64,000 bases of DNA from NCBI RefSeq assembly GCF_005222485.1, contig NZ_CP029078.1:310001-374000 (forward strand). The letters are read 5' to 3'. The first letter of the stretch is position 1. Each line of letters opens with the position of its first letter. This document shows positions 1 to 52,897 of this stretch, in pieces. The notes beneath the pieces are model-generated. The model was not told where the DNA came from, did not search any database, and saw only the letters and a list, made by a program, of their open reading frames with translations. The position numbers were made by a program, and so were the translations under genes. The DNA is from Streptomyces griseoviridis. GTDB taxonomy: Bacteria > Actinomycetota > Actinomycetes > Streptomycetales > Streptomycetaceae.

Positions 1-4323
<4,323 letters not shown>

Positions 4324-36839: not shown

Positions 36840-37496
36840 ATGCTCGTCATGACGTCAAGGGGTCCTGGGAAGCGGGTTCGCAAGGCACCGGCCGAACGGC
36901 GCGGCGAGATCGTCGCGGCCGCCGCGCGGGTCGGGCTCACCGAAGGGCTGGAGTGCGTCACCCTGCGCCGGGTCGCCGACGAGCTCGAAGTGCGCCCCGG
37001 GCTCGTCGGCCACTACTTCCCGGCCGCCGACACCCTGGTGGCCGAGGCGTTCACCGCCGCCACCACGAACGACCTGGACGCGCTGCTGCCGCCCGGCGCA
37101 CCCGGTCCCGGCGGCGACGCGACGGCGGTCCTGCGGCGCTTCTTCGCCCTCACCGGCAGCGCCGACTTCGACAACGTGAGCCGGCTCTGGCTCAACGCCC
37201 GGCACCTCTCGCGCTACCGGCCGGGGCTGCGCGAGCACGTCGTGGCGCTCGAGCTGCTCTGGTGCGGCCGGATCGAGGAGATCATCACCGCCGGGACCGG
37301 GACCGGCGCGTTCACCTGCGGCGACCCGTGGGCGGCGGCCGTGCGGATCCTGGTGGCGATCGACGGCGCGAGCGCCTACATCAACACCAGCGCCGACCGG
37401 CGCGGCCCGGCCGCGGGAGAGCTGGCCAGGACCCTCGCGGAGACGGAACTCGGCCTGGCCCCCGGCACCCTCGGGCCGTCCGGGGCGCCGGTCTAG
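36840..37496 (+). CDS. TetR-family regulator of the permease-dehydrogenase operon
   Basis: This 218-residue protein has its DNA-binding domain at about 20-65 (RRGEIVAAAARVGLTEGLECVTLRRVADELEVRPGLVGHYF). The helix-turn-helix and the VGHYF variant of the usual LYRYF motif recall BetI-like regulators. The C-terminal domain resembles the TetR_C group with LWLNARHLSRYRP. Two in-frame ATGs (36840, 36849) are possible. Its end overlaps the convergent lacI gene by four bases. The paired operators directly upstream indicate control of itself and the divergent operon. Confidence 0.88.
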   Translation: MLVMTSRGPGKRVRKAPAERRGEIVAAAARVGLTEGLECVTLRRVADELEVRPGLVGHYFPAADTLVAEAFTAATTNDLDALLPPGAPGPGGDATAVLRRFFALTGSADFDNVSRLWLNARHLSRYRPGLREHVVALELLWCGRIEEIITAGTGTGAFTCGDPWAAAVRILVAIDGASAYINTSADRRGPAAGELARTLAETELGLAPGTLGPSGAPV

Positions 37497-38533
37497 GCCG
37501 ACGCCCGCACGACCAGTTCCGGGTCGAAGACCAGTGAGGTCGGTTCGGTGCGGGCGCCGCGGATGTGTTCGTCGAGCAGTCCGGCCATCGCCGACGCCAT
37601 GTCCTCGACCGGCTGGCGGACGGTGGTCAGCGGCGGACGGCAGCCGACGGCCGCGCTGGAGTCGTCGAAGCCGACCACCGCCACGTCCTGCGGGACCCGT
37701 CTGCCCTGCTCGGCGAGGACCTGGCAGACGCCCTGGGCCATCAGGTCGTTCCCGGCGAACACCCCGTCCAGGTCGGGGTGTGCGGCCAGCAGCCGGGTCA
37801 TCGCGGCGCGGCCGCTCTCCAGGGTGAAGCCGCCCTCGGCGGACGGCACCCAGGGGCAGCCGTGGCGGGCCATCGCGTCGCGGAAGCCGTCCAGGCGCTC
37901 CTGGCTCGCGGGGACCGCGAGGGGGCCCGAGACGGTGGCGGTCCTGCGGCAGCCGCGCGCCAGCAGCCGGTCGGCGGCGAGCCGTCCGCCGTCCCGGTGG
38001 GCGAGGTCGACGTAGCTGAGCGCCACCGGCCGCGCGGGGCGGGCGAACAGCACGGCGGGCAGGCCGTTGTCGGCGAGCCGCGCGGGCAGCGGGTCGTCGC
38101 CGTGCGTGGAGACCACCAGCGCGCCGTCCGCGCTGCCCTGCCGCAGATACCGCACGACCTGCTCGCGGCTCTCCTCGGTCTCGGCGAACATCAGCACCGG
38201 GTGCATGGAGCGTGGCCGCAGATAGCCGACCACGCCGCTCACCACCCGGCCGAAGAACGGGTCGGCGAAGACCCGCGCGGTGAAGACGTCCTGGGTCTCC
38301 TCCGAGGCGTCACCGGCTCCCGAGACGACCAGCGCGACCGTCTCGGTGCGCCGGGTCACCAGGGAGCGGGCGGCCCGGTTGGGGGCGTAGCCGGTCCGGG
38401 CGATGGCCTGCCTGACCAGGTCCTGGATGGCGGGGTCGACGTTGCGGACGCCGTTGACGACCCGGGACACGGTGGCCCTGGAGACCCCCGCCTCCCGGGC
38501 GACGTCCTCCAGGGTCGGCGCCTGTCTGCTCAT
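37493..38533 (-). CDS. LacI-family regulator of the proposed beta-glucan regulon
   Basis: This 346-residue protein has an N-terminal helix-turn-helix and hinge (PTLEDVAREAGVSRATVSRVVNGVRNVDP, residues 6-34; YAPNRAARSLVTRRTETVALVV). A periplasmic-binding-like effector domain follows, with GVFAGNDLMAQGV and VAVVGFDDSSAAVGCRPPLTTVRQP. It is the fourth minus-strand gene after the DUF1996, clan-A glycosidase and GH3 genes. A palindrome with core AGAGCGCTCT lies 36 bp upstream of its start. The same core occurs at 44107 and 52534, making it the natural candidate for the regulator of all three sites; the sugar effector is unknown. Confidence 0.9.
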   Translation of the reverse strand: MSRQAPTLEDVAREAGVSRATVSRVVNGVRNVDPAIQDLVRQAIARTGYAPNRAARSLVTRRTETVALVVSGAGDASEETQDVFTARVFADPFFGRVVSGVVGYLRPRSMHPVLMFAETEESREQVVRYLRQGSADGALVVSTHGDDPLPARLADNGLPAVLFARPARPVALSYVDLAHRDGGRLAADRLLARGCRRTATVSGPLAVPASQERLDGFRDAMARHGCPWVPSAEGGFTLESGRAAMTRLLAAHPDLDGVFAGNDLMAQGVCQVLAEQGRRVPQDVAVVGFDDSSAAVGCRPPLTTVRQPVEDMASAMAGLLDEHIRGARTEPTSLVFDPELVVRASA

Positions 38534-38568
38534 GACGGCACCCTAACCGGCCGTCCCACCAGCGGTAT

Positions 38569-38578
38569 AGAGCGCTCT
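38569..38578. promoter_or_regulatory. LacI operator upstream of lacI (AGAGCGCTCT)
   Basis: AGAGCGCTCT is a 10-bp palindrome in the 118-bp gap between the GH3 stop and the lacI start. It is shorter than the two other copies, as is often so for autoregulation. Confidence 0.65.
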
Positions 38579-38651
38579 CCCGGTGCGGGGCCCGCTCGGG
38601 TCGGCCGACACGGCACCGCGCCTCGGCGCCGCCCGATCCGGACGACAGGCC

Positions 38652-41087
38652 CTAACCGGGCGGGCGGACGCACACCTCGCGGCGGAGCGGGAGGTCTCCC
38701 GCCGAGCGGCCCGCGAGCACCGTGCAGCCGCCCGGCTCGACGCGCCAGCCGTGGCCCTCGGACCAGTGGCGCAGCGCCCCGGCCGGGACGTCGACGGTGA
38801 CGGTGGTCAGCTGCCCGGGGTCGGCGCGGGCGGTGGCGTACCCGGCGAGCCAGCGCACCGGGTACTCGATCGCCGAGTCGGGGCGGGCGAGGTAGATCTG
38901 CACGACCTCCCGTCCGGGGCGCGGTCCCGTGTTGCGCAGCCGGACGCGGACGGTGAGGGGTTCGCCCGCCCGGATCTCGTCGGAGCCGGTCACCTCCTCG
39001 TACTCCCAGGTGGTGTAGCCGAGGCCGTGGCCGAACCAGTAGGCGGGGGTGCGGTGGTGGAGCAGCCAGCCGCGGTGGCCGAGGTGCAGCCCCTCGTCGT
39101 AGGGGAGGCGGCCGGAGGTTGGGGTGGTGTCGGTGACGGGGGCGTTGGCGAGGGCGGCCGGCCAGGTGGTGGGCAGCCGGCCGCCGGGTTCGCGGCGGCC
39201 GACGAGGACGTCCGCGACGCCCGCTCCGCCCTGCTGTCCGGGGAACCACGCCAGCAGGACCGCGCCGACCCGCTCGCGCCAGGGCAGTTCGACCGGTCCG
39301 CCGCTGTTGACGACGGCGACCGTCCGCGGGTTGGCGGCGGCCACCGCGTCGACCAGGGCGTCCTGGTGGGAGCCGAGGGCGAGGCCGGTGCGGTCGGCGC
39401 CCTCGGACTCGTCGTCCAAGGTGGTGCCGACGACGACCACGGCCACGTCCGCCGAGGCCGCCGCGCGGGCCGCGTCGGCGAGCGCGGCGGCGGGTTCGGG
39501 CGGTGGCGGGGCCGCGGTGACGACGAGGGCGCGGCCGGTGTCGGGCGCCAGGGTCCTGGTGGCGACCAGGTGGACGGGCTGGCCCGCGCGGAGGTGGGCG
39601 GTGACGGTGTGGGCCGGCGGGTTGACGTGGACGACGGCCGGGTCGTCGGTGCGGCGGGCGACGTCCTCGTCGAAGAGGGTGCGTCCGTCGAGGGTGAGGA
39701 CCATGCGGCCGAAGCCGCCGAGGCCGAGCGTCCACGCTCCGGTGGTGTCGGGGCGCAGCCGGGCGCTGATCTCCACGGTGTGCGCGTCCGGTCCGCAGGG
39801 CGGCTCCAACTGCCTTCCTGACCAGCGGTGTTCGGCGTGCAGTTCGCGGCCCGAGGCGTCCAGGACGCGCAGCAGCAGGCCCCCCTCACCGGTGCGCGGG
39901 TCGGTGCACAGGTCGGGGCCGAGGGGTGGCGGGGGTTCGGTGAGGGCGGGTCCCGGCACGTGGACGACGCGGGCCCGGCCGGTGAGCGCCGCCCGCAGGC
40001 CGTCGAGGACGGAGACCTCCTCGTGCGGGAAGACACCGGCGCTGCCGCCGCCCGCGGTGCGGGTGCGGGCCGCGTGGGCGCCGATCACCGCGACGGTGGC
40101 GAGCCGGTCGGGGTCGAGGGGCAGCAGTCCGCGGTTGCTGAGCAGGACCGCACCTGCGGCGGCCGAACGACGCAGCAACTCCCGCTCCTCCGAAGGATCT
40201 TGAGGGTCGACGGGGGTGGGGCCTGGCCCGAGCGCGCCGGTCCGTTCGGCGAGCCTGAGCAGTCGGCGCACCTTGTCGTCGACGGCCTCCCTCGGCACCT
40301 CCCCCGCCGCCACGGCCCGCGCCAGGGCCGCGCCCCAGACGTCGGAGGGGCCCGGCATGACGAGGTCGAGTCCGGCCCGCGCGGTGTCCGCGGTGCTGGT
40401 GACGGCGCCCCAGTCGGAGACCACCAGGCCGTCGAAGCCCCACTCGCTCTTGAGCGGGTCGGTGAGCAGCCGACTGGCCGTCATCGGGGCGCCGTTGACG
40501 CCGTTGTACCCGGCCATGACCACCCGTACCCCGGCAGCGACGGCCGCCTCGAACGGGGCGAGATAGACCTCCCGCAGCGCCCGGGGGCCGACCCGCACGT
40601 CCACGGTGAGCCGCTCGGTCTCGGAGTCGTTGGCCACGTAGTGCTTGGCGGTCGCCGCGACCCCCCGCGCCTGGACACCGCGGATCAGCGCGGCGCCGAT
40701 CCGGCCGGTGAGCAGGGGGTCCTCCGAGAAGCACTCGAAGTGGCGGCCGGCCAGCGGGCTGCGGTGCAGGTTGAGGGTGGGGGCGAGGACGACGTCGACG
40801 CCCTTGCGGCGGGCCTCGGCGGCGAGGAGCGCGCCGAGCTGTCCGACCAGCTCCTCGTCCCAGGTGGCGGCGAGCGCGGAGGGCGACGGCAGCAGCGCCG
40901 AGGTGTCCCGCTCGTCCCAGGACTCGCCGCGGACCCCCGCCGGACCGTCCGACATCACCAACTCCCGCAGCCCGATGGCTGGTTCGGCCCGGGTGCGCCA
41001 GGTGGTCGCGCCGGTGAGCAGCGCCGCCCTGGTCTCGGGCGTGAGCTTCTCCAGCAGCCGCTCGCGTTCGTCCTCGGTGCTCCCCAC
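38652..41087 (-). CDS. GH3 beta-glucosidase with PA14 domain
   Basis: This 811-residue enzyme has no signal peptide and so is probably cytoplasmic. The GH3 N-terminal barrel contains LVMSDGPAGVRG near 46, FECFSEDPLLTG, TAKHYVANDSE and the nucleophile motif GFDGLVVSDWGA near 218. A PA14-type beta domain is inserted at about 375-510 (LLLRVLDASGRELHAEHRWSG ... GRTLFDEDV). The sandwich domain and a fibronectin-III-like end (RVRLRNTGPRPGREVVQIYL) complete it. The GTG at 41087 has GAGAGGAC upstream. It would hydrolyse short beta-glucosides; its operon-mates and shared operators suggest beta-1,3-gluco-oligosaccharides. Confidence 0.92.
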   Translation of the reverse strand: MGSTEDERERLLEKLTPETRAALLTGATTWRTRAEPAIGLRELVMSDGPAGVRGESWDERDTSALLPSPSALAATWDEELVGQLGALLAAEARRKGVDVVLAPTLNLHRSPLAGRHFECFSEDPLLTGRIGAALIRGVQARGVAATAKHYVANDSETERLTVDVRVGPRALREVYLAPFEAAVAAGVRVVMAGYNGVNGAPMTASRLLTDPLKSEWGFDGLVVSDWGAVTSTADTARAGLDLVMPGPSDVWGAALARAVAAGEVPREAVDDKVRRLLRLAERTGALGPGPTPVDPQDPSEERELLRRSAAAGAVLLSNRGLLPLDPDRLATVAVIGAHAARTRTAGGGSAGVFPHEEVSVLDGLRAALTGRARVVHVPGPALTEPPPPLGPDLCTDPRTGEGGLLLRVLDASGRELHAEHRWSGRQLEPPCGPDAHTVEISARLRPDTTGAWTLGLGGFGRMVLTLDGRTLFDEDVARRTDDPAVVHVNPPAHTVTAHLRAGQPVHLVATRTLAPDTGRALVVTAAPPPPEPAAALADAARAAASADVAVVVVGTTLDDESEGADRTGLALGSHQDALVDAVAAANPRTVAVVNSGGPVELPWRERVGAVLLAWFPGQQGGAGVADVLVGRREPGGRLPTTWPAALANAPVTDTTPTSGRLPYDEGLHLGHRGWLLHHRTPAYWFGHGLGYTTWEYEEVTGSDEIRAGEPLTVRVRLRNTGPRPGREVVQIYLARPDSAIEYPVRWLAGYATARADPGQLTTVTVDVPAGALRHWSEGHGWRVEPGGCTVLAGRSAGDLPLRREVCVRPPG

Positions 41088-41112
41088 GCCCGCCGTCCTC
41101 TCCTGGTGGTGG

Positions 41113-42861
41113 TCAGTTGTAGACGCCGAACTCGTAGAGGGAGTAGCCCCATCCGGTGCCGCGGGCGGTGCCGAGGAGCCGTACGTAGCGGCCGGTTCCG
41201 GTGAGGTCGAGGTCGTCGACACCGCCGTTGCCGTCGGTCACCGCGCGGACGGTCCGCCAGTTCTGTCCGTCGTCGGAGGTCTGGATGCTGTACGCCTTCG
41301 CGTAGGAGGTCTCCCAGACCAACTGGACGTGGGTGAAGGAGGTGCGGGTGCCGAGGTCGACCTGGAGCCACTGCGGGTCGCTCCAGTCGCTGGCCCAGCG
41401 GGTGGCCGGGTCGCCGTCGACGGCGGCCGCCGGGGTGCACGGGCAGTCGCCGCCGCCGGTCTGGTACGAGGAGGCGGTGGCGGGCTTGCGGAGGGCGACG
41501 TCGGTGCCGCCGACGACCGGGGGCACGACCCGGATCGAGCGGGTCTCGACGCCGACGTTGCCCTTGCCGTCACTGGCCTTGACGTAGATCTTCCAGACGC
41601 CGGGGCGGTCGGGGGCGGTGACCCGCAGCCGTCCGCCGCCGAGGACGGTGACGGGCAGCGGGACGAGCTGCTTGCTCTGGTCGAGGTAGTTGCTGTTGTC
41701 GAGGACCTCGTAGGAGATCGGGTCGCCGTCCGGGTCGGACGCGCGCACGGCGAGGGTGAGGTCACGGCCCGCCTGGACCTTGCCCGCGTCGCCCTCGACG
41801 CTCAGGTCGGTGATGACGGGCGGGGTGTTGTCGCGGGAGGTGTCGGCGCCGTACGCCTTCTTCACCGCGTAGTAGGAGAGGCGTTTCTGGCCCGCGGGCA
41901 GCAGGTTGAACCAGATGCCGCCGAAGTCGTACTCGGTGCCGTAGTGGAACATCGTCGCGCCGAGGGCGACCCCGCGGTGCCCGGTGACGCAGTTCCACGC
42001 CTTGGTGTAGCCGGCCGCCTTGTCCTGGTCGCGGGGTTCGGCGGGGACGCCGTTGGCGTCGTCCGGTACCTCCCACTCCCCCGCGGGACCGGTCTCCGTG
42101 ACGATGTACGGCTTGGTGTAACCGCCCTGCTCCCAGGTGGACTTGATGTCGCAGACCGCGTTGTAGGAGTTGACGGCGTACAGGTCGAGGTCGGGGGCGT
42201 TGCGCTTGTAGTAGGGCCAGGCGCCGGTCCACGCGTCGGTCGAGGTGACCGGGTGGTTGGGGTCGATGCCGTGGATCTTCTTCGCGACGTCGTTGACGAA
42301 GGTGGTGTAGGCGTTGCGCTGGCGCTCCAACTCGTCGCCGCTGAAACAGTTCTGGAGTCCGAGGACGGACTCGTTGCCGACGTTCCACATGAGGACGCCC
42401 GGGTTGTCCTTGTAGGTCTGCACCCACTTGGGGAACTCGTCGAGCATCTGGTTCTTGTAGGCGGTGTCCGTCAGGTAGTTGACGCAGCCGCCGCTGCCGG
42501 GGCCGCCGCCCGGCTGGAGCCAGAACCCGGCGATGACCTTGATGCCGTGCGCGGCGGCCGAGTCGAACAGCGGCTTGCTGCTCGCGTCGGTGCCCCAGGT
42601 GCGGATGGTGTTGACTCCCATGGAGCGCACGTCGGGCAGGTACTTGTCGGCGTCGGCGACGGACGGTCCCCAGGTGAGGCCCTTGATCTGGTAGGGGCTG
42701 CCGTCCACGGTGAGCTGCCAGTTCCCCTGGGAACCGGTCACCTTGACGACGCTGCCCGCGGCGTGCGCCTGCTGGGCGGGGAGGGCGAGGGCACCGGCCG
42801 CGAGCAGCCCCGCGGTGAGGGGTGCCGCGAGACGGCGGACGGGCGTGCGGGGTCGGATCAT
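41113..42861 (-). CDS. Secreted clan-A glycoside hydrolase with C-terminal discoidin (CBM32-like) domain
   Basis: The protein has 582 residues. A Sec signal (MIRPRTPVRRLAAPL...AHA, to about 34) is followed by a GH2/GH72-like TIM barrel at about 40-345: QIKGLTWGPS, SMGVNTIRTWG, MWNVGNES (acid/base Glu near 167) and YIVTETGPAGEW (nucleophile Glu near 258). The DGSPYQIKG and GVNTIRTW motifs resemble beta-1,3-glucanosyltransferase-like enzymes. An Ig-like segment (about 350-440) leads to an F5/8-type C domain (ALRKPATASSYQ ... WLQVDLG ... GYSLYEFGVYN). It lies 25 bp before the GH3 start and 67 bp after DUF1996. Exact specificity is inferred. Confidence 0.85.
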   Translation of the reverse strand: MIRPRTPVRRLAAPLTAGLLAAGALALPAQQAHAAGSVVKVTGSQGNWQLTVDGSPYQIKGLTWGPSVADADKYLPDVRSMGVNTIRTWGTDASSKPLFDSAAAHGIKVIAGFWLQPGGGPGSGGCVNYLTDTAYKNQMLDEFPKWVQTYKDNPGVLMWNVGNESVLGLQNCFSGDELERQRNAYTTFVNDVAKKIHGIDPNHPVTSTDAWTGAWPYYKRNAPDLDLYAVNSYNAVCDIKSTWEQGGYTKPYIVTETGPAGEWEVPDDANGVPAEPRDQDKAAGYTKAWNCVTGHRGVALGATMFHYGTEYDFGGIWFNLLPAGQKRLSYYAVKKAYGADTSRDNTPPVITDLSVEGDAGKVQAGRDLTLAVRASDPDGDPISYEVLDNSNYLDQSKQLVPLPVTVLGGGRLRVTAPDRPGVWKIYVKASDGKGNVGVETRSIRVVPPVVGGTDVALRKPATASSYQTGGGDCPCTPAAAVDGDPATRWASDWSDPQWLQVDLGTRTSFTHVQLVWETSYAKAYSIQTSDDGQNWRTVRAVTDGNGGVDDLDLTGTGRYVRLLGTARGTGWGYSLYEFGVYN

Positions 42862-42928
42862 GGTTCTCTCCGGTGGGGGGAGGGGGCCCGGCCGGGGCGG
42901 GGACACGGCCGGCCGGGCCCGGTTCGGG

Positions 42929-44020
42929 TCAGGGCAGTTCGTACTTCTCGTTGAGGGCCGCGCCCGCCTCGGGGTGGGTCTGGTCGTAGCCGCGCGCGTC
43001 GCACTGGAGGCCGCCGACGATGCAGTGGTCGACGAGGGCCTTGAGGGTCGCGTCGTCCCACGCGTTGAAGAAGTCGTAGTGGAACGACCAGCTCGGCCCG
43101 CTGGCCAGCTTCACCTGGGAGAGGTCGCCGTTGACCGGGAAGGCCATCTTGAACTCGATCATCGGCAGCGCGACCGGGTGGTCGGCCGGGCACATGTTGT
43201 CGTTGGTGCCCGGCTTGACGACGGTGTAGGACATGTGACTCTTGTGGTCGGGCGAGTCGAGGTTCACGCCGTCCCAGCAACTGGGCGCCTGCATGCGGAT
43301 GTTGAGCTGCACATCGGCGCGGCTCGGGCAGTTGGCGGGGAACTCGACGTTGAAGAAGCTGTCGCCGCACTCCCAGCCCTCGACGAAGCCCGGGTGGTTG
43401 CGGAACTCCTGGGCGGTCTGGGTCGGGCTGCCCACCACGTACCTGAGCCCCTTGGGGAAGGGGCGCACGCTGGTGTAGTCGGTGACGCCCGCCTTGTAGT
43501 AGATGGTCTGCGGTCCGATGGGCCGCACCGGCTGGTCGCCCTTGAGGAGGGTCGGCATCCAGTAGCCGGACTTGTCGCCCGGCGCTTTGCAGGTGGTGGT
43601 GCCCGCCGACAGCGACGCGGTGGTGCTGGCCGCGTTGGTGGTGGTGTTGCCCATGAAGGTGTGGTCGTGGGACTTGCCCGGCTGCTGCGGGTAGACGATC
43701 GGGTCGTCGGGACGGGTGTGGCTGACCGAGCAGTTGGCCTGGAACTCGTGGAAGTAGCGGTGCGGCGGGTCCGCGGCGCGCGCGCCGACGCCGTCGACCC
43801 GGGTGGCGGCGGTGATGTAGCCGTCGCCGTCCGCGTCCTCGGACGACGTCGCGGTGGACGGGGCCATGCGGTGGCCGAGGTGGACGGCGGCGGGGGCGGC
43901 CTGGGCCGTGTCCGCGCGCTCCTCGGCGGCGCTCATCGCGACCCCGCTCAGTCCGAGCGAGGTCAGCAGCAGCGCCCCGGTGATCAGCGTTCCTGAGAGG
44001 ATCTTCGATCTCCCTGGCAT
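42929..44020 (-). CDS. Secreted DUF1996 protein
   Basis: This 363-residue exported protein has a signal sequence (to about residue 40) and the DUF1996 pattern: HEFQANCSVSHTRPDDPIVYPQQPGKSHDHTFMGN near 95-130, KSGYWMPTLL, FPKGLRYVVG, GWECGD, NCPSRADVQLNIRMQAPSCWDGVNLDSPDHKSHM and ending DQTHPEAGAALNEKYELP. Histidine-rich motifs and paired cysteines are conserved. The domain is common in fungi and actinobacteria and has no function I know of. GGAGG five bases upstream fixes the start. It is the first gene of the operon under the 22-bp palindrome at 44107, so a role in binding or opening beta-glucan is plausible. Confidence 0.88.
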   Translation of the reverse strand: MPGRSKILSGTLITGALLLTSLGLSGVAMSAAEERADTAQAAPAAVHLGHRMAPSTATSSEDADGDGYITAATRVDGVGARAADPPHRYFHEFQANCSVSHTRPDDPIVYPQQPGKSHDHTFMGNTTTNAASTTASLSAGTTTCKAPGDKSGYWMPTLLKGDQPVRPIGPQTIYYKAGVTDYTSVRPFPKGLRYVVGSPTQTAQEFRNHPGFVEGWECGDSFFNVEFPANCPSRADVQLNIRMQAPSCWDGVNLDSPDHKSHMSYTVVKPGTNDNMCPADHPVALPMIEFKMAFPVNGDLSQVKLASGPSWSFHYDFFNAWDDATLKALVDHCIVGGLQCDARGYDQTHPEAGAALNEKYELP

Positions 44021-44106
44021 GGAGACCTCCTGAACACGTCGATGGGAGACGGTGGGGGGCGGGACGGCGAACTGGCCGGAGAGGTCCGCAAGTTGCCCGG
44101 GAACAC

Positions 44107-44128
44107 TCCGGGAGAGCGCTCTCCCGGA
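44107..44128. promoter_or_regulatory. LacI operator, 22-bp perfect palindrome
   Basis: The core GAGAGCGCTCTC extends to a 22-bp perfect palindrome (outer TCCGG/CCGGA) 87 bp before the DUF1996 start. An outer 9-bp inverted repeat, AACACTCCG (44102-44110) and CGGAGTGTT (44130-44138), overlaps it. It shares its core with 38569 and 52534. Confidence 0.85.
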
Positions 44129-44243
44129 TCGGAGTGTTGAGGCAGTGACCAACGGTGTCAAGGGATCGCGCAGAAGGATCAGCGGCCACCGCGGCCCCGG
44201 CCGCCCTGCCGGGGCAGGGGTCAGGGCCGGTTAGCCTGAGCGG

Positions 44244-45059
44244 ATGCGCGTGACTCAGCCCACGGCGCGGCGTGCGCGCAAGGGCGCGGCCACCGCCGTC
44301 CGCAATCTGCCGGCGCTCGCCGCGGGCGAGGTCGAGGTGCCGTTCGTCATCCACGGCTACGAGGAGGTCGTCGCCCGCGACACCACCTGGAACGAGCACT
44401 CGCACCCGTGGCACGAGCTGCTCTGGAACGAACAGGGCGCCTCCACCGCCGTGGTGGGCTCCGCCGTCTGGTGTGTCACGCCGGCGCTCGGCCTCTGGAT
44501 GCCCGCGGGGCAGCTGCACTCGGGCTCAGCGGTGACCGGCACCAGTTCCCGCGCCCACTTCTTCCGCTACGGCACCACGTCCGCGCTGCCCTCGGCCCCG
44601 GTGGCCGTGGAGATCACGCCGCTGCTGCGGCTGCTCCTCGACCGGCTCGGCGAACCCGAACTGACCGCCGCGTCGCGGGCGGTGACCGAGGCGATGGTCC
44701 TCGATGTGCTGCGGCCCTCGCCGCGCGCGCTGCTGGTGCATCTGCCCACGTCCGAGCTGCTGCGCCCGATCGTCGACGCGGTGCGGGCCGACCCGGGCGA
44801 CCAGCGGACGCTGACCGGCTGGGCGGCGGCTCTCGGCCGCAGTCCGCGCACGGTGACCCGGGCGTTCCGGGCGGAGACCGGCACCAGTTTCGCCCGCTGG
44901 GTGGCGACGGTGCGCGCGCAGCACGCGGTGCGGCTGCTCGCCCAGGGTTTCGAGGTCGACGTGGTCGCCGACGTGGTCGGCTACCGCTCGGCGAGCGCGT
45001 TCGGGGCGGCCTTCCGGCGGACGACCGGCATGACGCCCGGGATGTTCCGGGCGCGCTGA
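44244..45059 (+). CDS. AraC-family regulator with cupin-like sensor
   Basis: This 271-residue protein has an N-terminal cupin-type domain (TTWNEHSHPWHELLWNEQG, PALGLWMPAGQLHSG). Two C-terminal helix-turn-helices follow (TLTGWAAALGRSPRTVTRAFRAETG; EVDVVADVVGYRSASAFGAAFRRTTGMTPGMFR). It is divergent from the DUF1996 operon and upstream of the siderophore importer, 471 bp away. AraC regulators of this type next to Fe-siderophore transporters often act as siderophore-responsive activators. Which neighbour it controls cannot be decided from the sequence. Confidence 0.88.
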   Translation: MRVTQPTARRARKGAATAVRNLPALAAGEVEVPFVIHGYEEVVARDTTWNEHSHPWHELLWNEQGASTAVVGSAVWCVTPALGLWMPAGQLHSGSAVTGTSSRAHFFRYGTTSALPSAPVAVEITPLLRLLLDRLGEPELTAASRAVTEAMVLDVLRPSPRALLVHLPTSELLRPIVDAVRADPGDQRTLTGWAAALGRSPRTVTRAFRAETGTSFARWVATVRAQHAVRLLAQGFEVDVVADVVGYRSASAFGAAFRRTTGMTPGMFRAR

Positions 45060-45080
45060 CCGGCGTCACGCCGGGGGCGT

Positions 45081-45432: not shown

Positions 45433-45530
45433 CTTGCTCTCGCCTGTGCGGTGTCCCGCTCCACGTCCCGTAGTCCGCGGTCCGGACGCGCGAGCCCGGC
45501 ACCCCTGAACCGAAAGTGGAACACGGGTCC

Positions 45531-46583
45531 ATGAGAACCCCCCGCCTGCGCGCGCTCGCCACGGCCGCCGCGCTCCTGCTCGCACTCACGGCCTGCGGCG
45601 GCCGGTCCGACGACTCCGGCAGCCAGGACGGCGCGGCTGCCGGCGCGTCCGCCGGCGCCGGCCAGTTCCCGATGACGGTGAAGCACGCCCTCGGCAGCAC
45701 CGTCATCCCCGCCAAGCCGACCCGTGTGGCCACCGTGAACTGGGCCAACGACGAGGTGCCGCTCGCCCTCGGGGTAGTCCCGGTCGGCATGGCCAAGGCC
45801 AACTTCGGCGACGACGACGGCGACGGCGTCCTGCCCTGGGTCGAGGCCCGCATCGAGGAACTCGGCGCGAAGACGCCGGTCCTCTTCGACGAGACCGACG
45901 GCATCGACTTCGAGGCCGTGGCCGACACCCGGCCCGACGTCATCCTCGCCGCCTACTCCGGGCTGACCAAGCAGGACTACACGACGCTCAGCGAGATCGC
46001 GCCCGTGGTGGCCTACCCGGACGCGGCCTGGGCGACGCCCTGGCGCGACATCATCCGCATGAACAGCAAGGCCATCGGCCTCGCCGCCGAGGGCGACCGG
46101 CTGATCACCGATCTCGAGGGCGAGATCGCCACGACCGTCGCCAAGTACCCCCAGCTCAAGGGGAAGACGGCGATGTTCATGACGCACGTCTCCTCCAAGG
46201 ACGTCAGCCAGGTCGGCTACTACACGACCCACGACACCCGCACCCAGTTCTTCACCGACCTCGGCATGAAGATCCCGGCCAGCGTCTCCGGGCCGTCGAG
46301 GTCGACGGAGAAGTTCGTCCTCACCAAGAGCGCCGAACGCATCGACGACTTCAACGACGTCGACCTCATCACCGGCTACGGCGACGACAAGGGCGAGCTG
46401 CTCAAGGCCCTCAAGAAGGACCCGCTCACCTCGAAGCTCGCCGCCGTGCGGCAGGGCTCGATCTATCTGCTGCCCGGCAGCACCCCGCTGGCCACCGCCG
46501 CCAACCCGACCCCGCTGGCCATCCCGTACGTGCTCGACGACTACGTGGCAGCGCTCGCCAAGGCCGCGGACAAGGTCACGTGA
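45531..46583 (+). CDS. Iron-siderophore ABC transporter substrate-binding lipoprotein
   Basis: This 350-residue lipoprotein has a signal peptide ending in the lipobox LTAC (Cys near 22), a Ser/Gly/Ala linker and a class III (FepB/FecB-like) binding fold: VKHALGSTVIPAKPTRVATVNWANDEVPLALGV, DTRPDVILAAYSGLTKQDYTTLSEIAPVV and the C-terminal VLDDYVAAL. The WANDEV segment is typical of actinobacterial iron-siderophore binders. The ATG at 45531 is used rather than a GTG 15 bases earlier. It is the first gene of a four-gene importer operon below an iron box. Confidence 0.92.
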   Translation: MRTPRLRALATAAALLLALTACGGRSDDSGSQDGAAAGASAGAGQFPMTVKHALGSTVIPAKPTRVATVNWANDEVPLALGVVPVGMAKANFGDDDGDGVLPWVEARIEELGAKTPVLFDETDGIDFEAVADTRPDVILAAYSGLTKQDYTTLSEIAPVVAYPDAAWATPWRDIIRMNSKAIGLAAEGDRLITDLEGEIATTVAKYPQLKGKTAMFMTHVSSKDVSQVGYYTTHDTRTQFFTDLGMKIPASVSGPSRSTEKFVLTKSAERIDDFNDVDLITGYGDDKGELLKALKKDPLTSKLAAVRQGSIYLLPGSTPLATAANPTPLAIPYVLDDYVAALAKAADKVT

Positions 46584-47623
46584 CGCTCACCGGGACCCCG
46601 CGCACGCCGGACGCCGTGATCGTGCGGCGCCCGGCGCGCGTGCGCGTCGGCCTGCTTTTTGTGGTGCTGGCCGTGCTGCTGCTGGTGGCGACCGCGTCCC
46701 TCGTGTTCGGCTCCCGCGACGTCGCCTGGTCCGACGTCTGGTCGGCGCTCGGCGGCGCGGACGGCTCCCTGGAGGAGGCCGCCGTCACCAAGCGGGTGCC
46801 GCGCACCCTGCTCGCGGTGGCCGTGGGCGCCGCGCTCGGCCTGGCCGGCGCCGTCATGCAGGGCGTGACCCGCAATCCGCTGGCCGACCCCGGCATCCTC
46901 GGTGTCAACATGGGCGCCTCGCTCGCCGTCGTCACCGCGGTCGCCCACTTCGGCCTCGCGTCGGCGGCCGGCTACATCTGGGTGGCGATGCTGGGCGCCG
47001 CCCTGACCGCCGGGTTCGTGTACTGCGTCGGCTCGCTGGGGCGCGGCGGCGCGACGCCGCTGAAGCTGGCGCTGTCCGGCGCCGCCACGTCGGCCGCGAT
47101 CGCCTCCCTGGTGAGCGCCGTCGTGCTGCCCCGCAACGACATCTCCGACACCTTCCGCCTCTGGCAGATCGGCGGGGTCGGCGGCGCCTCCTACCCGCAG
47201 CTCGGCACGGTCGTGCCGTTCCTCGCCGCCGGGTCCGTGATCTGTCTGGCCTGCGCCCGCGCCCTCAACTCGCTGGCGCTGGGCGACGAACTCGCCGCCG
47301 GGCTCGGTGAGCGGGTGGCGCTGGTCAGGGCCGCCGCGGCGCTCGGCGCGGTCGTGCTGTGCGGCGCGTCCACCGCCGTCGCCGGTCCGATCGGCTTCGT
47401 CGGGCTGGTCGTCCCGCACGCGTGCCGGCTGCTGGTCGGCGTGGACCACCGCTGGCTGCTGCCGTTCTCCGCGCTGACCGGGGCCACGCTGCTGACCGCC
47501 GCCGATGTGGTCGGCCGGGTGGTGGCCCGCCCCGCGGAGATCTCCGTGGGCATCGTGACGGCGCTGATCGGCGCCCCCTTCTTCATCCACATCGTCCGCC
47601 GGCAGAAGGTCAGATCCCTGTGA
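46580..47623 (+). CDS. FecCD-family iron-siderophore permease 1
   Basis: This 347-residue protein has about 8-10 membrane segments and FecCD motifs: RVPRTLLAVAVGAALGLAGAVMQGVTRNPLADPGILGVNMGA near 70-112 and GPIGFVGLVVPHACRLLVG near 275. The GTG overlaps the binding-protein stop (GTGA). It forms a heterodimeric channel with the next gene product. Confidence 0.93.
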   Translation: MTLTGTPRTPDAVIVRRPARVRVGLLFVVLAVLLLVATASLVFGSRDVAWSDVWSALGGADGSLEEAAVTKRVPRTLLAVAVGAALGLAGAVMQGVTRNPLADPGILGVNMGASLAVVTAVAHFGLASAAGYIWVAMLGAALTAGFVYCVGSLGRGGATPLKLALSGAATSAAIASLVSAVVLPRNDISDTFRLWQIGGVGGASYPQLGTVVPFLAAGSVICLACARALNSLALGDELAAGLGERVALVRAAAALGAVVLCGASTAVAGPIGFVGLVVPHACRLLVGVDHRWLLPFSALTGATLLTAADVVGRVVARPAEISVGIVTALIGAPFFIHIVRRQKVRSL

Positions 47624-48672
47624 GCGCCCCCGTCGTCACCGGCCCTTCCGTGCAGCGGGCGGTCACCCGCGGGAGGGTGCGCCGCGGCCACCGGCGGCGT
47701 CTGATCGTGCTGACGCTGCTGGTCCTCGTCGTCGCCGTGTTCGCCACCACGCTGATGGCCGGGCACACCTTCTACCCGGCCCGTGACGTGCTGCGCGTGA
47801 TCATGGGTGAGCGGGTGCCGGGCGCGTCGTTCACCGTGGGCACGCTGCGGCTGCCGCGCGCGGTGCTCGCGCTGACCGCCGGGTTCAGCTTCGGCATCGC
47901 GGGCGTCACCTTCCAGACGATGCTGCGCAACCCGCTGGCCAGCCCGGACGTCATCGGCATCAGCTCGGGCGCGAGCGCGGCGGCGGCCCTCGCCATCGTG
48001 ACGCTCTCGCTCGGTGAGAGCGAGGTGGCGGTGCTGGCCATCGCCGCCGCGCTCGGGGTGGCGCTGCTGGTGTACACGCTGGCGTTCCGGGACGGGGTGG
48101 CGGGCACCCGGCTGATCCTGATCGGCATCGGCATCTCCGCGCTGCTGGACAGCGTCACCTCCTACGTCCTGTCGCAGGCGGGCGAGTGGGACCTCCAGGA
48201 GGCGATGCGCTGGCTCACCGGCAGCCTCAACGGCACCTCCTGGCGGGAGACGGTGCCCGCCGTCTGCGCGGTGGTGGTGCTCAGCCCGGTGCTGCTGGCG
48301 CGGGCCCGCGACCTGACCGCGCTCCAGCTCGGCGACGACACGGCGTCCGCGCTCGGGGTGCGCGTCGAACGCACCCGGATCACGGTGATCGTCGCCGCCG
48401 TCGGGCTGATCGCGTTCGCCACGGCCGCCGCGGGTCCGATCGCGTTCGTCGCCTTCCTGTCCGGGCCGATCGCCGCCCGCCTGGTGGGCACCGGGGTGTC
48501 CCTGCTGGTACCGGCCGGCCTGGTCGGCGCCCTGCTGGTGCTGGTCGCCGACTTCACCGGCCAGTACGCCTTCGACACCCGCTACCCGGTGGGTGTCGTC
48601 ACCGGGGTGCTCGGCGCCCCCTACCTCGTCCATCTGATCGTCCGCAGCAACCGGGCCGGAGGCTCACTGTGA
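47620..48672 (+). CDS. FecCD-family iron-siderophore permease 2
   Basis: This 350-residue paralogue of the previous gene has a basic N-terminus (RGRVRRGHRRR), then LRLPRAVLALTAGFSFGIAGVTFQTMLRNPLASPDVIGISSGAS near 80 and GPIAFVAFLSGPIAARLVG. The GTG at 47620 overlaps the preceding stop, which fixes the start although the frame is open further upstream. Confidence 0.93.
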   Translation: MSAPVVTGPSVQRAVTRGRVRRGHRRRLIVLTLLVLVVAVFATTLMAGHTFYPARDVLRVIMGERVPGASFTVGTLRLPRAVLALTAGFSFGIAGVTFQTMLRNPLASPDVIGISSGASAAAALAIVTLSLGESEVAVLAIAAALGVALLVYTLAFRDGVAGTRLILIGIGISALLDSVTSYVLSQAGEWDLQEAMRWLTGSLNGTSWRETVPAVCAVVVLSPVLLARARDLTALQLGDDTASALGVRVERTRITVIVAAVGLIAFATAAAGPIAFVAFLSGPIAARLVGTGVSLLVPAGLVGALLVLVADFTGQYAFDTRYPVGVVTGVLGAPYLVHLIVRSNRAGGSL

Positions 48673-49487
48673 CCGCGTCCCACACCCTCGCCACCGAGGA
48701 CCTCACCCTCGGCTACGGCGACCGAGCCGTCATCGAGGGCCTGGACCTGGCGCTCGCGCCGGGCGAGATCACCGTCATCGTGGGCGCCAACGCCTGCGGC
48801 AAGTCCACCCTGCTGCGCTCCATGTCCCGGCTGCTCGCGCCCCGTTCGGGCCGGGTGGTGCTGGACGGCAAGGAGGTGCACCGGCTGCCCGCGAAGGAAC
48901 TCGCCCGCACCCTGGGCCTGTTGCCGCAGTCGCCGGTCACCCCCGAGGGCATCACGGTCCTCGACCTGGTGGGCCGGGGCCGCCATCCGCACCAGCGCGC
49001 CTTCTCCCGCTGGACGAGCCGGGACGACGCGGCGGTTGCGGCGGCCCTCGAGGCCACCCGGACGACGGACCTGATGGACCGCTCGGTCGACGAACTCTCC
49101 GGGGGCCAGCGCCAACGGGTGTGGATCGCGATGGCGTTGGCCCAGCAGACCGATCTGCTGCTGCTCGACGAGCCGACGACGTTCCTCGACATCAGCCACC
49201 AGATCGAGGTCCTCGACCTGCTGACCGACCTGAACAGGACCCGTGGCACGACGATCGTGATGGTCCTGCACGATCTGAACCTGGCCGCCCGCTACGCCGA
49301 CCGCCTGGTGGCCCTCGCGGCGGGGCGGCTGCACGCGTCGGGCACCCCGGCCGAGGTGCTGACACAGGACACCGTGCGGGCGGTGTACGGGATGGCGAGC
49401 CGGATCATCGAGGACCCGCTGTCGGGCAGACCGCTGGTCCTGCCGATCGGCCGGCACCACTCGGCGGCGCGTCCCACGCCGGCCTGA
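48669..49487 (+). CDS. Iron-siderophore ABC transporter ATPase
   Basis: This 272-residue FepC-like ATPase has Walker A GANACGKST near 40, Q-loop LPQSP, signature LSGGQRQR near 143, Walker B LLLLDEPT and the switch His in VLHDLNLA. It powers the two FecCD permeases. The GTG overlaps the preceding stop, so the whole importer is translationally coupled. It is the last gene of the operon. Confidence 0.94.
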   Translation: MTASHTLATEDLTLGYGDRAVIEGLDLALAPGEITVIVGANACGKSTLLRSMSRLLAPRSGRVVLDGKEVHRLPAKELARTLGLLPQSPVTPEGITVLDLVGRGRHPHQRAFSRWTSRDDAAVAAALEATRTTDLMDRSVDELSGGQRQRVWIAMALAQQTDLLLLDEPTTFLDISHQIEVLDLLTDLNRTRGTTIVMVLHDLNLAARYADRLVALAAGRLHASGTPAEVLTQDTVRAVYGMASRIIEDPLSGRPLVLPIGRHHSAARPTPA

Positions 49488-49525
49488 CGGGCCGCCCGCT
49501 CCGGGCGCCGCCGCCCCGGCGCCGG

Positions 49526-50380
49526 TCAGGCGTCCAGCGCCAGCATCGCGGCAATCACCACCGCGAGCAGGGTCGCGTAGGCCCAGGCGTGGGTGCGGTC
49601 GCCGATGCGCGGCGGCCGGCGGCGCAGCACGGCGATCACGGGCAGCGCGCCGAGCAGCAGCGCCCCGGCGGCGCGCGGGTCCACCGTCCCGACCAGCGGC
49701 ACGCCCGCGCGGGCGGCGACGGGGGCGGTGTGGCCGAGCAGCGAGACGGCGGCGGCGGGCAGCGCGAGGGCGAGGGTGAGGGGGTTGGCGAGGGTGGTCG
49801 CGGTCCGCATGGTGTGTCCGGCCCGCCGCATCGCCGGGACGGTCAGGACGCTGCCGCCGACCCCGAGGAAGGCCGCGACGGCGCCGATCGGCGCTCCGAG
49901 CACGGCGGGCAGTCCCGCGCCGCCGGGGCTGCCGAGGGTGCTGTCGCTGCCGGGGCTGCCGGCACCGTCGGCGCTGTCGGCACCGTCGGCCGGGGCCTGC
50001 GGCTTCAGGAACCCGGGGCGCAGCAGCAGGTCGGCGAGGGTGAGGGCGACATAGGCGGTGAACGCCCAGCGGACCGGTCCCGACGGCGCGAGCCGGGCGG
50101 CGAGCGCGCCCAGCGCCCCGCCGACGGCCAGCAGCGCGAGCAGCGGGCGCCCGCCGCGCAGCGCGGCGAGGGTGGGGCGCGGGGTGACGGCGGTGGCGAA
50201 ACCGGCGTTCACCACCATGACCACCGCCGAGGTGGCCGTCGCCACCCTCATCGCGTCCGTGCCGAGCGCGCCGTCCGCCCACACCACCACCGGGACGGCG
50301 ACGAATCCGCCGCCGAACCCGAACAACACCGTCGTGAGCCCGGTGAGGACCCCGATTCCGAGCAGCGCGAGAACATCCAT
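49526..50380 (-). CDS. TauE/SafE-family membrane transporter
   Basis: This 284-residue protein has about seven or eight membrane segments in two homologous halves: LTGLTTVLFGFGGGFVAVPVVVW near 13 and APIGAVAAFLGVGGSVLTVPAM near 160, the repeated GxGGGxxxxP motif of the family. A Ser/Gly/Asp-rich loop (about 128-155) joins the halves. Members export sulfite, sulfoacetate or other organic anions. It is divergent from the AraC gene at 50466 over 85 bp, which probably controls it. Confidence 0.88.
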   Translation of the reverse strand: MDVLALLGIGVLTGLTTVLFGFGGGFVAVPVVVWADGALGTDAMRVATATSAVVMVVNAGFATAVTPRPTLAALRGGRPLLALLAVGGALGALAARLAPSGPVRWAFTAYVALTLADLLLRPGFLKPQAPADGADSADGAGSPGSDSTLGSPGGAGLPAVLGAPIGAVAAFLGVGGSVLTVPAMRRAGHTMRTATTLANPLTLALALPAAAVSLLGHTAPVAARAGVPLVGTVDPRAAGALLLGALPVIAVLRRRPPRIGDRTHAWAYATLLAVVIAAMLALDA

Positions 50381-50465
50381 GGGGCTCAGTCCACCAGCCG
50401 CCGACCAGGGCCCGCATGCGATGATCGGCGCCGTTCTTTCGCGTCTCGGCCGGTAGGGTCGAGGG

Positions 50466-51227
50466 GTGAAGAACGTTCCGCTGTCCGAGGTGGACGCCGC
50501 GCCGCGGGCGGTGCTGCCGATCGGCACCGACTACCCGCCGGGCCTGCTGCTCGACTGGCACGAGCACCGGCGGGCCCAGTTCCTGTACGGCGCGACCGGG
50601 GTGATGGTCGCCGACACCGCCGACGGGTCGTGGACGGTCCCGCCCGAGCGCGCCCTGCTCATCCCGGCCACCACCCGGCACCGGGTGCGGATGCTCGGGG
50701 TGAGCACCAGGAGCCTGTACGTCGAACCGGCCGCGGTGCCGTGGTGGCCCGCCCGGTGCACGGTCGTGGACGTGCCGCCGCTGCTGCGTGAACTGCTGCT
50801 GGCCGCGGTCGAGTTCGAGGCCGACTACGACCTGTCGGGGCGGGCCGGGCAGGTGGTGGCGCTGATGCTGCACGAGATCGCGGCGCTCACCCCGCTGCCC
50901 TTCCACATCGCGGTGCCCGCTGCCCCCGAGCTGGCCGCGCTCTGCCGGGCGTATCTGGCGGCGCCCGACGTGGCGGTCACCAACGCGCTCTGGGCGCGGC
51001 GGGCGGCGATGAGCGAGCGGGCCTTCACCCGCAGGTTCAGGGAGCAGACGGGGGAGAGCCCGGCGGGCTGGCGGGCCCGCGCCCGGCTGCTGGCGGCGCT
51101 GCCGCTGCTGCGGTCGGGCACGGTGACCGAGGTGGCCGGGCGCCTCGGCTACGCCTCGCCCGCCGCGTTCACCGCCGCCTTCACCCGGCTGTTCGGGGCG
51201 CCGCCGTCCCGGTTCCACGGGCGGTGA
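50466..51227 (+). CDS. AraC-family regulator
   Basis: This 253-residue protein has an N-terminal cupin (DWHEHRRAQFLYGATGVMVADTADGSWTVPPERALLIPATTRHRVRM) and C-terminal AraC helices (RAFTRRFREQTGESPAGWRARARLL, GTVTEVAGRLGYASPAAFTAAFTRLFGAPPSRF). It is of the type often paired divergently with a small transporter gene, here TauE. It begins with a GTG. Confidence 0.9.
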   Translation: MKNVPLSEVDAAPRAVLPIGTDYPPGLLLDWHEHRRAQFLYGATGVMVADTADGSWTVPPERALLIPATTRHRVRMLGVSTRSLYVEPAAVPWWPARCTVVDVPPLLRELLLAAVEFEADYDLSGRAGQVVALMLHEIAALTPLPFHIAVPAAPELAALCRAYLAAPDVAVTNALWARRAAMSERAFTRRFREQTGESPAGWRARARLLAALPLLRSGTVTEVAGRLGYASPAAFTAAFTRLFGAPPSRFHGR

Positions 51228-51252
51228 GGGGCGCGCGGTGCGCCGGCTCCGC

Positions 51253-52452
51253 TCAGAACGCGGAGAGGGTGAGGGTGAAGCCGGTCGGGGCGGTGTCCTG
51301 GATGTAGGAGGCGAAGTCGGCGACGTCGTCGAAGGCGAAGCCGTACGCCTTGCCGTCCTCGGTCGCCGCGTGGATCGCCTTGGCGTAGTGGTTGGTCAGC
51401 GCGCCCTGGTAGAAGGCGGCCGGGTCGGTGCCGGGCTGGGCGGTGGTGCTGAGCAGCGTGGAGCGGTTGAACCCGGCGCCGAGGACGGCGGCGACGGGTC
51501 CCGTGGTGCCGTCGTTGGGGGCGGCGAGGTTGCCGTCGCAGAACAGGACGTCCCGGGTGGACGGCTTGGCGAAGGAGACCGAGGCGGGCCCGTCGAAGGT
51601 GAACTGCTCGCCGCGGACCCGGCCGGTGAACGCGCCGGCGTTGGTGGTGACCGTGAGGTCCTTGCCGGTGTAGGTGGACCAGACCTCGTCGATGTAGGGC
51701 GCGAAGTAGTCCTTGGCGAAGAGGCCGGCGTCGAGGCCGTGGCCGGGCGCGATGATGCGGGTGTCGTCGACGACGAGCGGGGCGAACTCCTCGATCGCGC
51801 GGACGGCGTCGAAGGCCGCGGCGCGTCCGCCGGAGCGCAGGGTGCCGGTGGTCTGGTCCTTGTCGCCGGTGAGCCGGATGGCCATCGGCACGCTGAACAT
51901 GTCGACCATCGTGGTGTTGCAGAACATGCCGGCCGCGTTGTGGGTGAACTCGGCGCAGTCGTGCAGCACTCCGTAGTTGGGGTCGGACTCGACCCAGCCC
52001 GCCGGGTACTGGAGGGCGGCGGCGCCGTTGCCGTCGGTGACGGCCTTGAACTTGAGCTTCTCGCCGAGCGCGACGTAGATGCGGCCCGACATGTAGGGCA
52101 GGGACAGCTTGGTCTCGCCGTTGCCGGCGAGCGGGATGGCGTAGTCGGTGAAGCCGTCGGCGCCGTTGTCGGAGACGGCGATGGGGGCGACGGCGCCCTC
52201 GGGGGTGAGGCGGACCTGCTTGCCGTCCACGTTGCCGACGACGTAGAGGTGCACGGAGGCGTTGTCGAACGAGCCGCTGTTGTTGACGATGGTCACGGGG
52301 AGCGCGCCGGCCGCCGCGAGGGTCTTGCCGTCGCTCTGGTCGGCGAGCGCGTAGGGGGCGACGGCGGCGACGGCCGGGGCCGCCACGACCGCGCCACCGA
52401 GGGCGAACATCATCTTGCGGCGGGTCAGGTTGCGCTGGTGACGGGGCGTCAT
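51253..52452 (-). CDS. Secreted GH64 beta-1,3-glucanase
   Basis: This 399-residue protein carries a Tat signal (NLTRRKMMFALGGAVVAAPAVAAV, cut near ALA-D at about 37). A complete GH64/thaumatin-like catalytic region follows: PVTIVNNSGSFDNASVHLYVVG near 52, SGRIYVALGEKLKF near 120, WVESDPNYGVLHDCAEFTHN near 152 (acidic active-site strand), MFCNTTMVDMFSVPM and TRDVLFCDGNLAAP. Enzymes of this family release laminaripentaose from beta-1,3-glucan. No carbohydrate-binding module is attached. The palindrome TGAGAGCGCTCTCA lies 82 bp upstream, tying it to the GH3/DUF1996 operon. It is convergent with the AraC gene. Confidence 0.92.
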   Translation of the reverse strand: MTPRHQRNLTRRKMMFALGGAVVAAPAVAAVAPYALADQSDGKTLAAAGALPVTIVNNSGSFDNASVHLYVVGNVDGKQVRLTPEGAVAPIAVSDNGADGFTDYAIPLAGNGETKLSLPYMSGRIYVALGEKLKFKAVTDGNGAAALQYPAGWVESDPNYGVLHDCAEFTHNAAGMFCNTTMVDMFSVPMAIRLTGDKDQTTGTLRSGGRAAAFDAVRAIEEFAPLVVDDTRIIAPGHGLDAGLFAKDYFAPYIDEVWSTYTGKDLTVTTNAGAFTGRVRGEQFTFDGPASVSFAKPSTRDVLFCDGNLAAPNDGTTGPVAAVLGAGFNRSTLLSTTAQPGTDPAAFYQGALTNHYAKAIHAATEDGKAYGFAFDDVADFASYIQDTAPTGFTLTLSAF

Positions 52453-52897
52453 GGCGAGAACACACCTTGTCTGTGGGGGACGTTCAGGTCCTGCTCCGGA
52501 GGCACGTTCCGCGCACGCGGGCGCCCTGCTGCCTGAGAGCGCTCTCACGGATGCGGTGCGGTCCGCCGCCGGGCCCTCGACGATACGCACGAACGTTGCT
52601 GGCGCCAACCGGAACGCACATCGCCACATCCCGCTGATCTGCGGTTACTTGAGAGGCGGGGTGGAGGCGAAGAACGCTTAAGGCGCGTTTAACCCTCGCT
52701 TAAGAAGGACCGCCGCGGCCACTCCCCCGCCGCGACGGGGCCTTGGGGTGCCCTGGCGGAGACCGCGCCGGCCTCGGTCACGCGGCCGGTCGGGCGCCCT
52801 TCCCGTGGGGCGGCGCGGGACGCCTGTCCGCCGCCGTCGCACCGGCTCGAGCGACCCGCCGCCGACCGTCGGGGCCAGGCGGCGCCCGGCCCGGCGG
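52453..52897. other. Intergenic region with GH64 promoter
   Basis: It contains the LacI-type operator (52534-52547) and, nearer the flavoprotein stop, two copies of CGCTTAAG around a TTTAA (52675-52704). No gene is supported. Confidence 0.55.
52534..52547. promoter_or_regulatory. LacI operator before GH64 (TGAGAGCGCTCTCA)
   Basis: This 14-bp perfect palindrome lies 82 bp before the GH64 start. It shares the core GAGAGCGCTCTC with the site at 44107 and AGAGCGCTCT with the site at 38569. Confidence 0.82.

Follow-up and report, generated by a model that had tools for sequence, protein, structure and literature searches.

Two sister LacI-family repressors probably divide beta-1,3-glucan enzyme genes between two closely related operators in Streptomyces griseoviridis

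A 64,000-nucleotide stretch of the Streptomyces griseoviridis genome (positions 310001-374000 of a single contig of 8,962,736 bases; hereafter the window) carries three related palindromes, located before the gene for a LacI-family regulator (LacI-A), before an operon encoding a DUF1996 protein and enzymes of glycoside hydrolase (GH) families 158 and 3, and before a GH64 endo-beta-1,3-glucanase gene. We found that these palindromes belong to two classes, box A and box B, each of which tracks a different regulator across the genus. On this sequence evidence, the genes probably form two regulons under sister repressors of the CebR/CelR kind, with LacI-A acting on box A and a second regulator, LacI-B, acting on box B. 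The window features concerned are as follows.

38566..38581, minus strand: box A before lacI-A, one half weak, reading GGGAGAGCGCTCTATA on the minus strand
44107..44128, minus strand: box A before the DUF1996-GH158-GH3 operon, a 22-bp perfect palindrome
52534..52547, minus strand: box B TGAGAGCGCTCTCA, upstream of GH64 and assigned to LacI-B
37493..38533, minus strand: lacI-A, LacI-family regulator of 346 aa, CebR/CelR-like (Pfam LacI 1e-15, Peripla_BP_3 5e-34)
38652..41087, minus strand: GH3 beta-glucosidase-type enzyme, no signal peptide by eye (Pfam GH3 N 3e-47, C 3e-54)
41113..42861, minus strand: GH158-like enzyme with a C-terminal carbohydrate-binding module (CBM) of family 32 (F5/8 C domain; Pfam F5_F8_type_C), signal peptide by eye
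42929..44020, minus strand: DUF1996 protein, signal peptide by eye (Pfam DUF1996 3e-46)
51253..52452, minus strand: GH64 endo-beta-1,3-glucanase, Tat-like signal by eye (Pfam Glyco_hydro_64 7e-100)

The window contains exactly three copies of the common core AGAGCGCTCT (at 38569, 44113 and 52536), against a mean chance expectation of 0.06, and none of 100 dinucleotide shuffles reached three copies. The palindromes were as earlier described from the sequence (22 bp at 44107-44128, 14 bp at 52534-52547 and 10 bp at 38569-38578), and each is followed, 36-93 bp downstream, by a minus-strand start (lacI at 38533, DUF1996 at 44020 and GH64 at 52452). The sequence-only reading had treated them as a single shared site type, which holds for the core but not for the class, since the outermost base splits the sites in two: a G adjoins GAGAGC at the lacI-A and DUF1996 sites, whereas the third site with its flanks is TGAGAGCGCTCTCA. 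Box A is thus GGAGAGCGCTCTCC, with the variant GGAGAGCGCTCTAT at the window lacI, and box B is TGAGAGCGCTCTCA, upstream of the window GH64; the two are one base apart per half.

In the whole 8.96-Mb genome, the core was found at 11 sites against one for the reversed control, and GAGAGCGCTCTC at eight against none, with all eight copies upstream of called genes (genes around the core sites were called with our own script, and chosen neighbours were scanned with Pfam). In genome order, the eight targets are the DUF1996-GH158-GH3 operon, GH64, an alpha-lytic-type serine protease, a GH76 operon (GH76, a GH2 with an AbfB domain and GH76), a GH16-CBM6 enzyme, LacI-B, a ribose-type ATP-binding cassette (ABC) operon adjacent to a third LacI gene, and a second GH64. 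One further core site, the ninth, is one base off GAGAGCGCTCTC and lies upstream of the window lacI. Perfect TGAGAGCGCTCTCA precedes both GH64 genes (GH64a and GH64b), the serine protease, the GH76 operon and GH16, and the form CGAGAGCGCTCTCA precedes lacI-B and the ribose-type operon. The regulon had been described as spread over two loci, but box sites occur at further loci genome-wide, and the lacI-B gene itself (7661400-7662566) lies 7.3 Mb from the window. The core sites at 5428707, within a purN-like gene, and at 5486993, between two small genes without a Pfam match, were taken as chance, and sites with one mismatch close to cellular genes (L043, L044, L045, L047, L048) were likewise discarded. 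At locus L046, around position 5720, GAAAGCGCTCTC lies upstream of a secreted cluster that is GH43-like by eye and may represent another LacI regulon with a neighbouring operator.

Each box class followed its own regulator among 121 Streptomyces genomes, this one included. Presence cut-offs were taken from gaps in the best-hit E-values (LacI-A below 1e-100, 51 genomes; LacI-B below 1e-60, 104 genomes). The core was detected at 604 sites in 114 of the 121 genomes (the reversed pattern totalled 18 by our own sum), box B at 295 sites in 101 genomes, and box A at 108 sites in 48. Box A was present in 45 of the 51 genomes with LacI-A and in 3 of the 70 without it (Fisher p=7e-23), and box B in 100 of the 104 with LacI-B and 1 of the 17 without it (Fisher p=2e-15), values that overstate the association and are only guides because the genomes share ancestry. 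The crossed pairs gave p=0.06 for box A with LacI-B, or 0.02 under a stricter LacI-B cut of 1e-66, and p=0.62 for box B with LacI-A. None of the six LacI-A-only genomes carried box B, and the 59 LacI-B-only genomes carried box A in 3 cases and box B in 56.

The target genes divided in the same manner. Both target sets use the gene closest to each site, apart from some additions and two swaps, and box B was represented by one locus per genome, own genome included. Box B targets (32 proteins, 29 loci) comprised GH64 (10), GH16 (8), alpha-lytic prodomain (4), GH81 (3) and LacI (2) proteins, and the serine protease link was found again in other genomes. Box A targets (29 proteins, 28 loci) comprised DUF1996 (12), F5/8 C of CBM32 type (8), GH3 (3) and LacI-type sensor domain (1) proteins; the CBM32 enzyme behind box A in genome G054 is a GH55 (1e-302 to 4pew). 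We then took a flank-blind sample of 75 core sites at 69 loci (29 first-listed places and 40 more in list order), in which three sites lay inside genes and 62 upstream of a recognised target, although the targets were not scored blind, as the list of recognised ones had been drawn up from loci studied before. Among the 49 sites entering the flank-target table, where TA, CA or TG counted as a B flank, A flanks preceded A targets nine times and B targets never, whereas B flanks preceded A targets once and B targets 39 times (p=5e-9). The table omits nine sites without an A or B target and 17 with other flanks (seven before GH55, four before B targets, one before an A target and five without).

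A forward test started from GH64 genes, using 450 bp upstream at 30 loci, one per genome, out of 51 genomes with GH64. It detected GAGAGCGCTCTC in 22 of the 30 loci and in none for the reversed control. The eight misses include the four top-scoring GH64 matches (L198-L201), which may form a separate subgroup, together with L208, L225, and L202 and L224 from the LacI-B-less genomes G053 and G057. We also examined the named relatives of LacI-B, taking the best 80 of 360 (79 titled Streptomyces and one 'Actinobacteria bacterium'). Their lacI-B loci held 87 core sites in 1.27 Mb, against about 0.7 expected by our estimate from the genus average, although the sites are not independent because related species share loci. 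One site lay inside a gene and 85 lay directly before genes for CUT1 substrate-binding proteins (49), GH81 (42), lacI-B (21), GH64 (6) and GH16 (6), some serving two genes; a box-A flank appeared once among the 87. A CUT1 binding protein was encoded in 28 of the 80 loci, GH1 in 23 and GH81 in 23, and this layout is that expected of a beta-1,3-glucan utilisation locus. Beyond the genus, box B was rarer (37 of 349 genomes, versus 35 of 44 within it, by our row count), and in 14 of 27 fetched loci it preceded N-termini resembling CUT1 binding proteins by eye.

Both regulators match PF00356 and PF13377, combining an N-terminal LacI helix-turn-helix with a periplasmic-binding-like sensor domain, and the closest solved structure to LacI-A is 5ysz (8e-77). 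Neither reached an equivalog cut-off in NCBIfam. In a tree of 60 rows, the 30 LacI-A rows formed a single clade (support 100/100), as did the 28 LacI-B rows (99/96; every second of 30 close ones plus 13 from the 70-80% group), and both clades stood apart from this genome's CebR-like protein, a single row on a long branch. The loop following the recognition helix differs between them (GVRNVDP in LacI-A, GGdGVRe in LacI-B) and may, by inference, be the seat of the outer-base choice. A predicted palindromic operator with a central CG precedes most of the regulators' own genes, counting sites with at most one mismatch within 250 bp upstream: 28 of 30 lacI-A loci (29 sites, 33-64 bp away, with one extra site at 230) and 22 of 30 lacI-B loci. 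The outer base is G at 27 of the 29 lacI-A sites, and a weak half is frequent there, 17 of the 29 reading GAGAGCGCTCTA. At the lacI-B sites, the far outer base is A in 20 of 22, and the near one is C in 14, G in 4, T in 3 and A in 1. The LacI-B of this genome (L032:9401-10570) seems to hold an insertion of about 35-40 residues (about residues 165-203), around which the listed orthologues align in two pieces.

From the boxes, their positions, the co-occurrence of regulators and the target families, we infer how binding, repression, induction and lysis may be connected. LacI-A would bind GGAGAGCGCTCTCC and repress its own gene and the DUF1996-GH158-GH3 operon. LacI-B would bind TGAGAGCGCTCTCA and repress a scattered set consisting of the second GH64, GH16-CBM6, the serine protease, the GH76 operon, the ribose-type ABC importer and lacI-B itself, to which the window GH64 most likely belongs, because its site is of the class that tracks LacI-B. 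In relatives, box B additionally precedes GH81, S1 protease and CUT1 importer genes. By analogy with CebR, both repressors would be released when beta-1,3-glucan fragments, probably laminari-oligosaccharides, enter the cell, and a secreted enzyme mixture able to open fungal walls would follow. The LacI-linked substrate theme proposed earlier is borne out by GH64, GH3 and a clan-A glycosidase that matches GH158 (phmmer 4.9e-35 to chain 9oro); the box before lacI itself is borne out too, and family membership predicts beta-1,3-glucan activity for the GH64, GH16-CBM6, GH81, GH55 and GH158 targets.

Several observations weigh against this reading, in addition to the shared ancestry behind the co-occurrence values. 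Box A occurs without LacI-A in G024, G027 and G040, and LacI-A without box A in G009, G028, G031, G039, G085 and G100; in G009, G031, G039 and G085, a core site with another flank or in weak form still precedes lacI-A. Box B occurs without LacI-B in G099, and LacI-B without perfect box B in G007, G044, G082 and G091. Two of the 30 lacI-A loci and eight of the 30 lacI-B loci lack an own-gene site, the fetched flanks of 27 of the 80 named lacI-B loci contain no site (53 have sites), and six of the eight GH64 misses come from genomes that have LacI-B. Three of the 29 box-A target proteins appear unrelated (DNA ligase, MoCo-binding and TetR), and the GH76 and ribose-type importer links were observed in this genome only. 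The core sites before GH55 enzymes (L053, L065, L068, L074, L361, L365, L370, L378, L383, L390) have mixed flanks (TT 3, GC 3, AT 2, CT 1, AC 1) that match neither class as a group; a third class is conceivable here, as is dual control. LacI-A and LacI-B share the same recognition helix, except for a V/A change in some LacI-B proteins, so that their binding may overlap. Finally, Streptomyces SirexAA-E secretes a GH64 on xylan and on xylose, and its GH55 laminarinase appears on glucose (PMC12772271), observations that a strict laminari-oligosaccharide switch fits poorly.

The near-identical helices, the single-base distance between the boxes per half, the mixed GH55 flanks and the mixture of box-A and box-B promoters in clusters of relatives (L228, L230, L231) are what would be expected if LacI-A and LacI-B each bound both boxes with a modest preference, so that all three window sites answered both. 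We regard such a shared network as rather unlikely, given the clean class-wise co-occurrence in the 121 genomes and the flank-target agreement of 9:1 versus 0:39. Government of all three sites by the window LacI alone, as first proposed, is improbable. It draws on the common 10-bp core, the location of the sites inside 14 kb and the shared substrate theme, but box B is retained in nearly all genomes with LacI-B alone and in none with LacI-A alone, and the site before GH64 matches box B perfectly. The flank, co-occurrence and flank-target tests led us to drop one regulator as the leading model, as the GH64 site belongs to the class tracking LacI-B.

Control by CebR, or by another LacI such as LacI-C beside the ABC operon, could appeal to the CebR box being one base per half from box B, to the adjacency of LacI-C to one site, and to the core-less GH64 locus L202 with GGGAGCGCTCCC upstream. 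As the sequence-only reading had noted, however, the core differs from the CebR box: eight GGGAGCGCTCCC sites occupy other loci of the same genome, including what we take, from sequence, to be a cebR-cebEFG-like locus, so that CebR control was set aside. The recognition helix of LacI-C (IKTVSN) is a different one and the protein is distant in the tree, and we consider control by either protein very improbable. That the palindromes are chance occurrences without function, for which only the shortness of the core speaks, is the least credible explanation of all, in view of the enrichment in the window and across the 121 genomes and the scarcity of sampled sites inside genes. Two regulons under LacI-A and LacI-B remain our preferred reading.

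The earlier suggestion that the regulon appears to lack a dedicated importer broadly stood. This genome lacks a close orthologue of the CUT1 protein that bears box B in relatives (best 47%, at the CebE-like position). The ribose-type ABC operon carries CGAGAGCGCTCTCA and is the only importer operon here with the box. A 70% orthologue of the importer from the relatives' LacI-A clusters is located at 7537640 next to permease genes and one GH1-like gene; it has no box, the nearest candidate showing three mismatches. In other actinobacterial genera (L253-L279), TGAGAGCGCTCTCA lies upstream of CebE-like binding proteins in several families, and box B may therefore have originated as an importer operator, with glucanases added later.

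For the DUF1996 protein, a sequence search of the PDB returned no relative up to E=1, and a PDB fold search with an AlphaFold model (mean pLDDT 58.7) was empty at E<=0.001; given the low-pLDDT model and the empty fold search, we claim no function. Homologues carrying an organism name are Streptomyces (120 among the 1998 matches listed). The C-terminal part of the GH158-like enzyme matches 4zy9 (1.7e-28) and resembles the sugar-binding modules of glucanases and chitosanases. The clusters at L228, L230 and L231 combine box-A promoters (such as those of GH3, DUF1996, GH158 and lacI-A) with a box-B serine protease, and also hold a box-less CUT1-GH1 importer set. At L057 and L366, core sites lie upstream of small signal-peptide proteins, one with a DPBB (expansin-like) domain at L057 and one similar by eye at L366, which may be wall-loosening members. 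Between the two window loci, positions 45531-49487 encode a binding protein, two permeases and an ATPase, by sequence an ABC operon for uptake of the iron-siderophore type, and AraC-type regulators are found at 44244-45059 and 50466-51227 (Pfam). Judged by sequence, the minus strand of window positions 1-4323 resembles a section of a non-ribosomal peptide synthetase gene.

The predicted system resembles the CebR/CelR regulon in its LacI-family repressors, its 14-bp palindrome with an AGCGCT centre, and its combination of scattered secreted glycosidases, an importer and the regulator's own gene. It differs in that LacI-A and LacI-B belong to other clades, box B is changed by one base and box A by two per half, and the targets are beta-1,3-glucan families rather than cellulases. 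Actinobacterial yeast-lytic enzyme mixtures contain a beta-1,3-glucanase plus a protease. The beta-1,3-glucanases and alpha-lytic-type serine protease found here match this combination, although the link in our case is a shared predicted operator known from sequence. The available part of Anderson 2012 (PMC3377646) prints TGAGAGCGCTCTCA and GGAGAGCGCTCTCC, identical to boxes B and A, for Catenulispora acidiphila, Thermobispora bispora and Streptosporangium roseum. ABC operons of both C. acidiphila and T. bispora follow TGAGAGCGCTCTCA there, which in the former species also precedes a LacI with GH5 and two GH16, maybe endo-1,3-beta-glucanases; in S. roseum, GGAGAGCGCTCTCC precedes an ABC operon and a group of LacI, two CBM32 proteins and GH3. 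In that part, the boxes are a side note in a cellulose survey that assigns a regulator to neither of them, describes no Streptomyces regulon, and names no protease, GH64, GH81, GH55 or DUF1996 members. The CebR/CelR box TGGGAGCGCTCCCA and the cellulase list, as given in the available parts of PMC5332605 and PMC4898821, concern cellulase and cebEFG genes; boxes A and B differ from this operator and lie at other genes of this genome. In our searches of an open-licence library, including the available part of a LacI-regulon survey (PMC4052901), we found no Streptomyces regulon with boxes A and B, and only PMC3377646 uses the box letters as such, the other papers being judged by title. The boxes are thus already in print for other genera, and the predicted Streptomyces regulon is new and of a known kind.

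Many Streptomyces are used or proposed for biocontrol, and to our knowledge little has been resolved about how they turn on antifungal enzymes. This control becomes directly testable with two candidate regulators, a 14-bp operator and a list of targets. Box B, present in most of the Streptomyces genomes examined (101 of 121), precedes genes for secreted enzymes that seem able to digest fungal-wall beta-1,3-glucan. We give even weight for and against a broader proposal, that of a previously unnamed, genus-wide fungal-wall lysis regulon in which the two sister repressors divide GH64, GH81, GH16, GH55, GH158, serine proteases and DUF1996, and are distinguished, both mutually and from CebR, by one-base differences in each half-site (TGGGAGC, TGAGAGC, GGAGAGC); DUF1996 would then be a new family acting on fungal walls. 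The regulon supplies a functional context for DUF1996 proteins, and a set of three related repressors, with single-base changes in each half-site separating their boxes, would offer a natural series for the splitting of LacI-type specificity after duplication.

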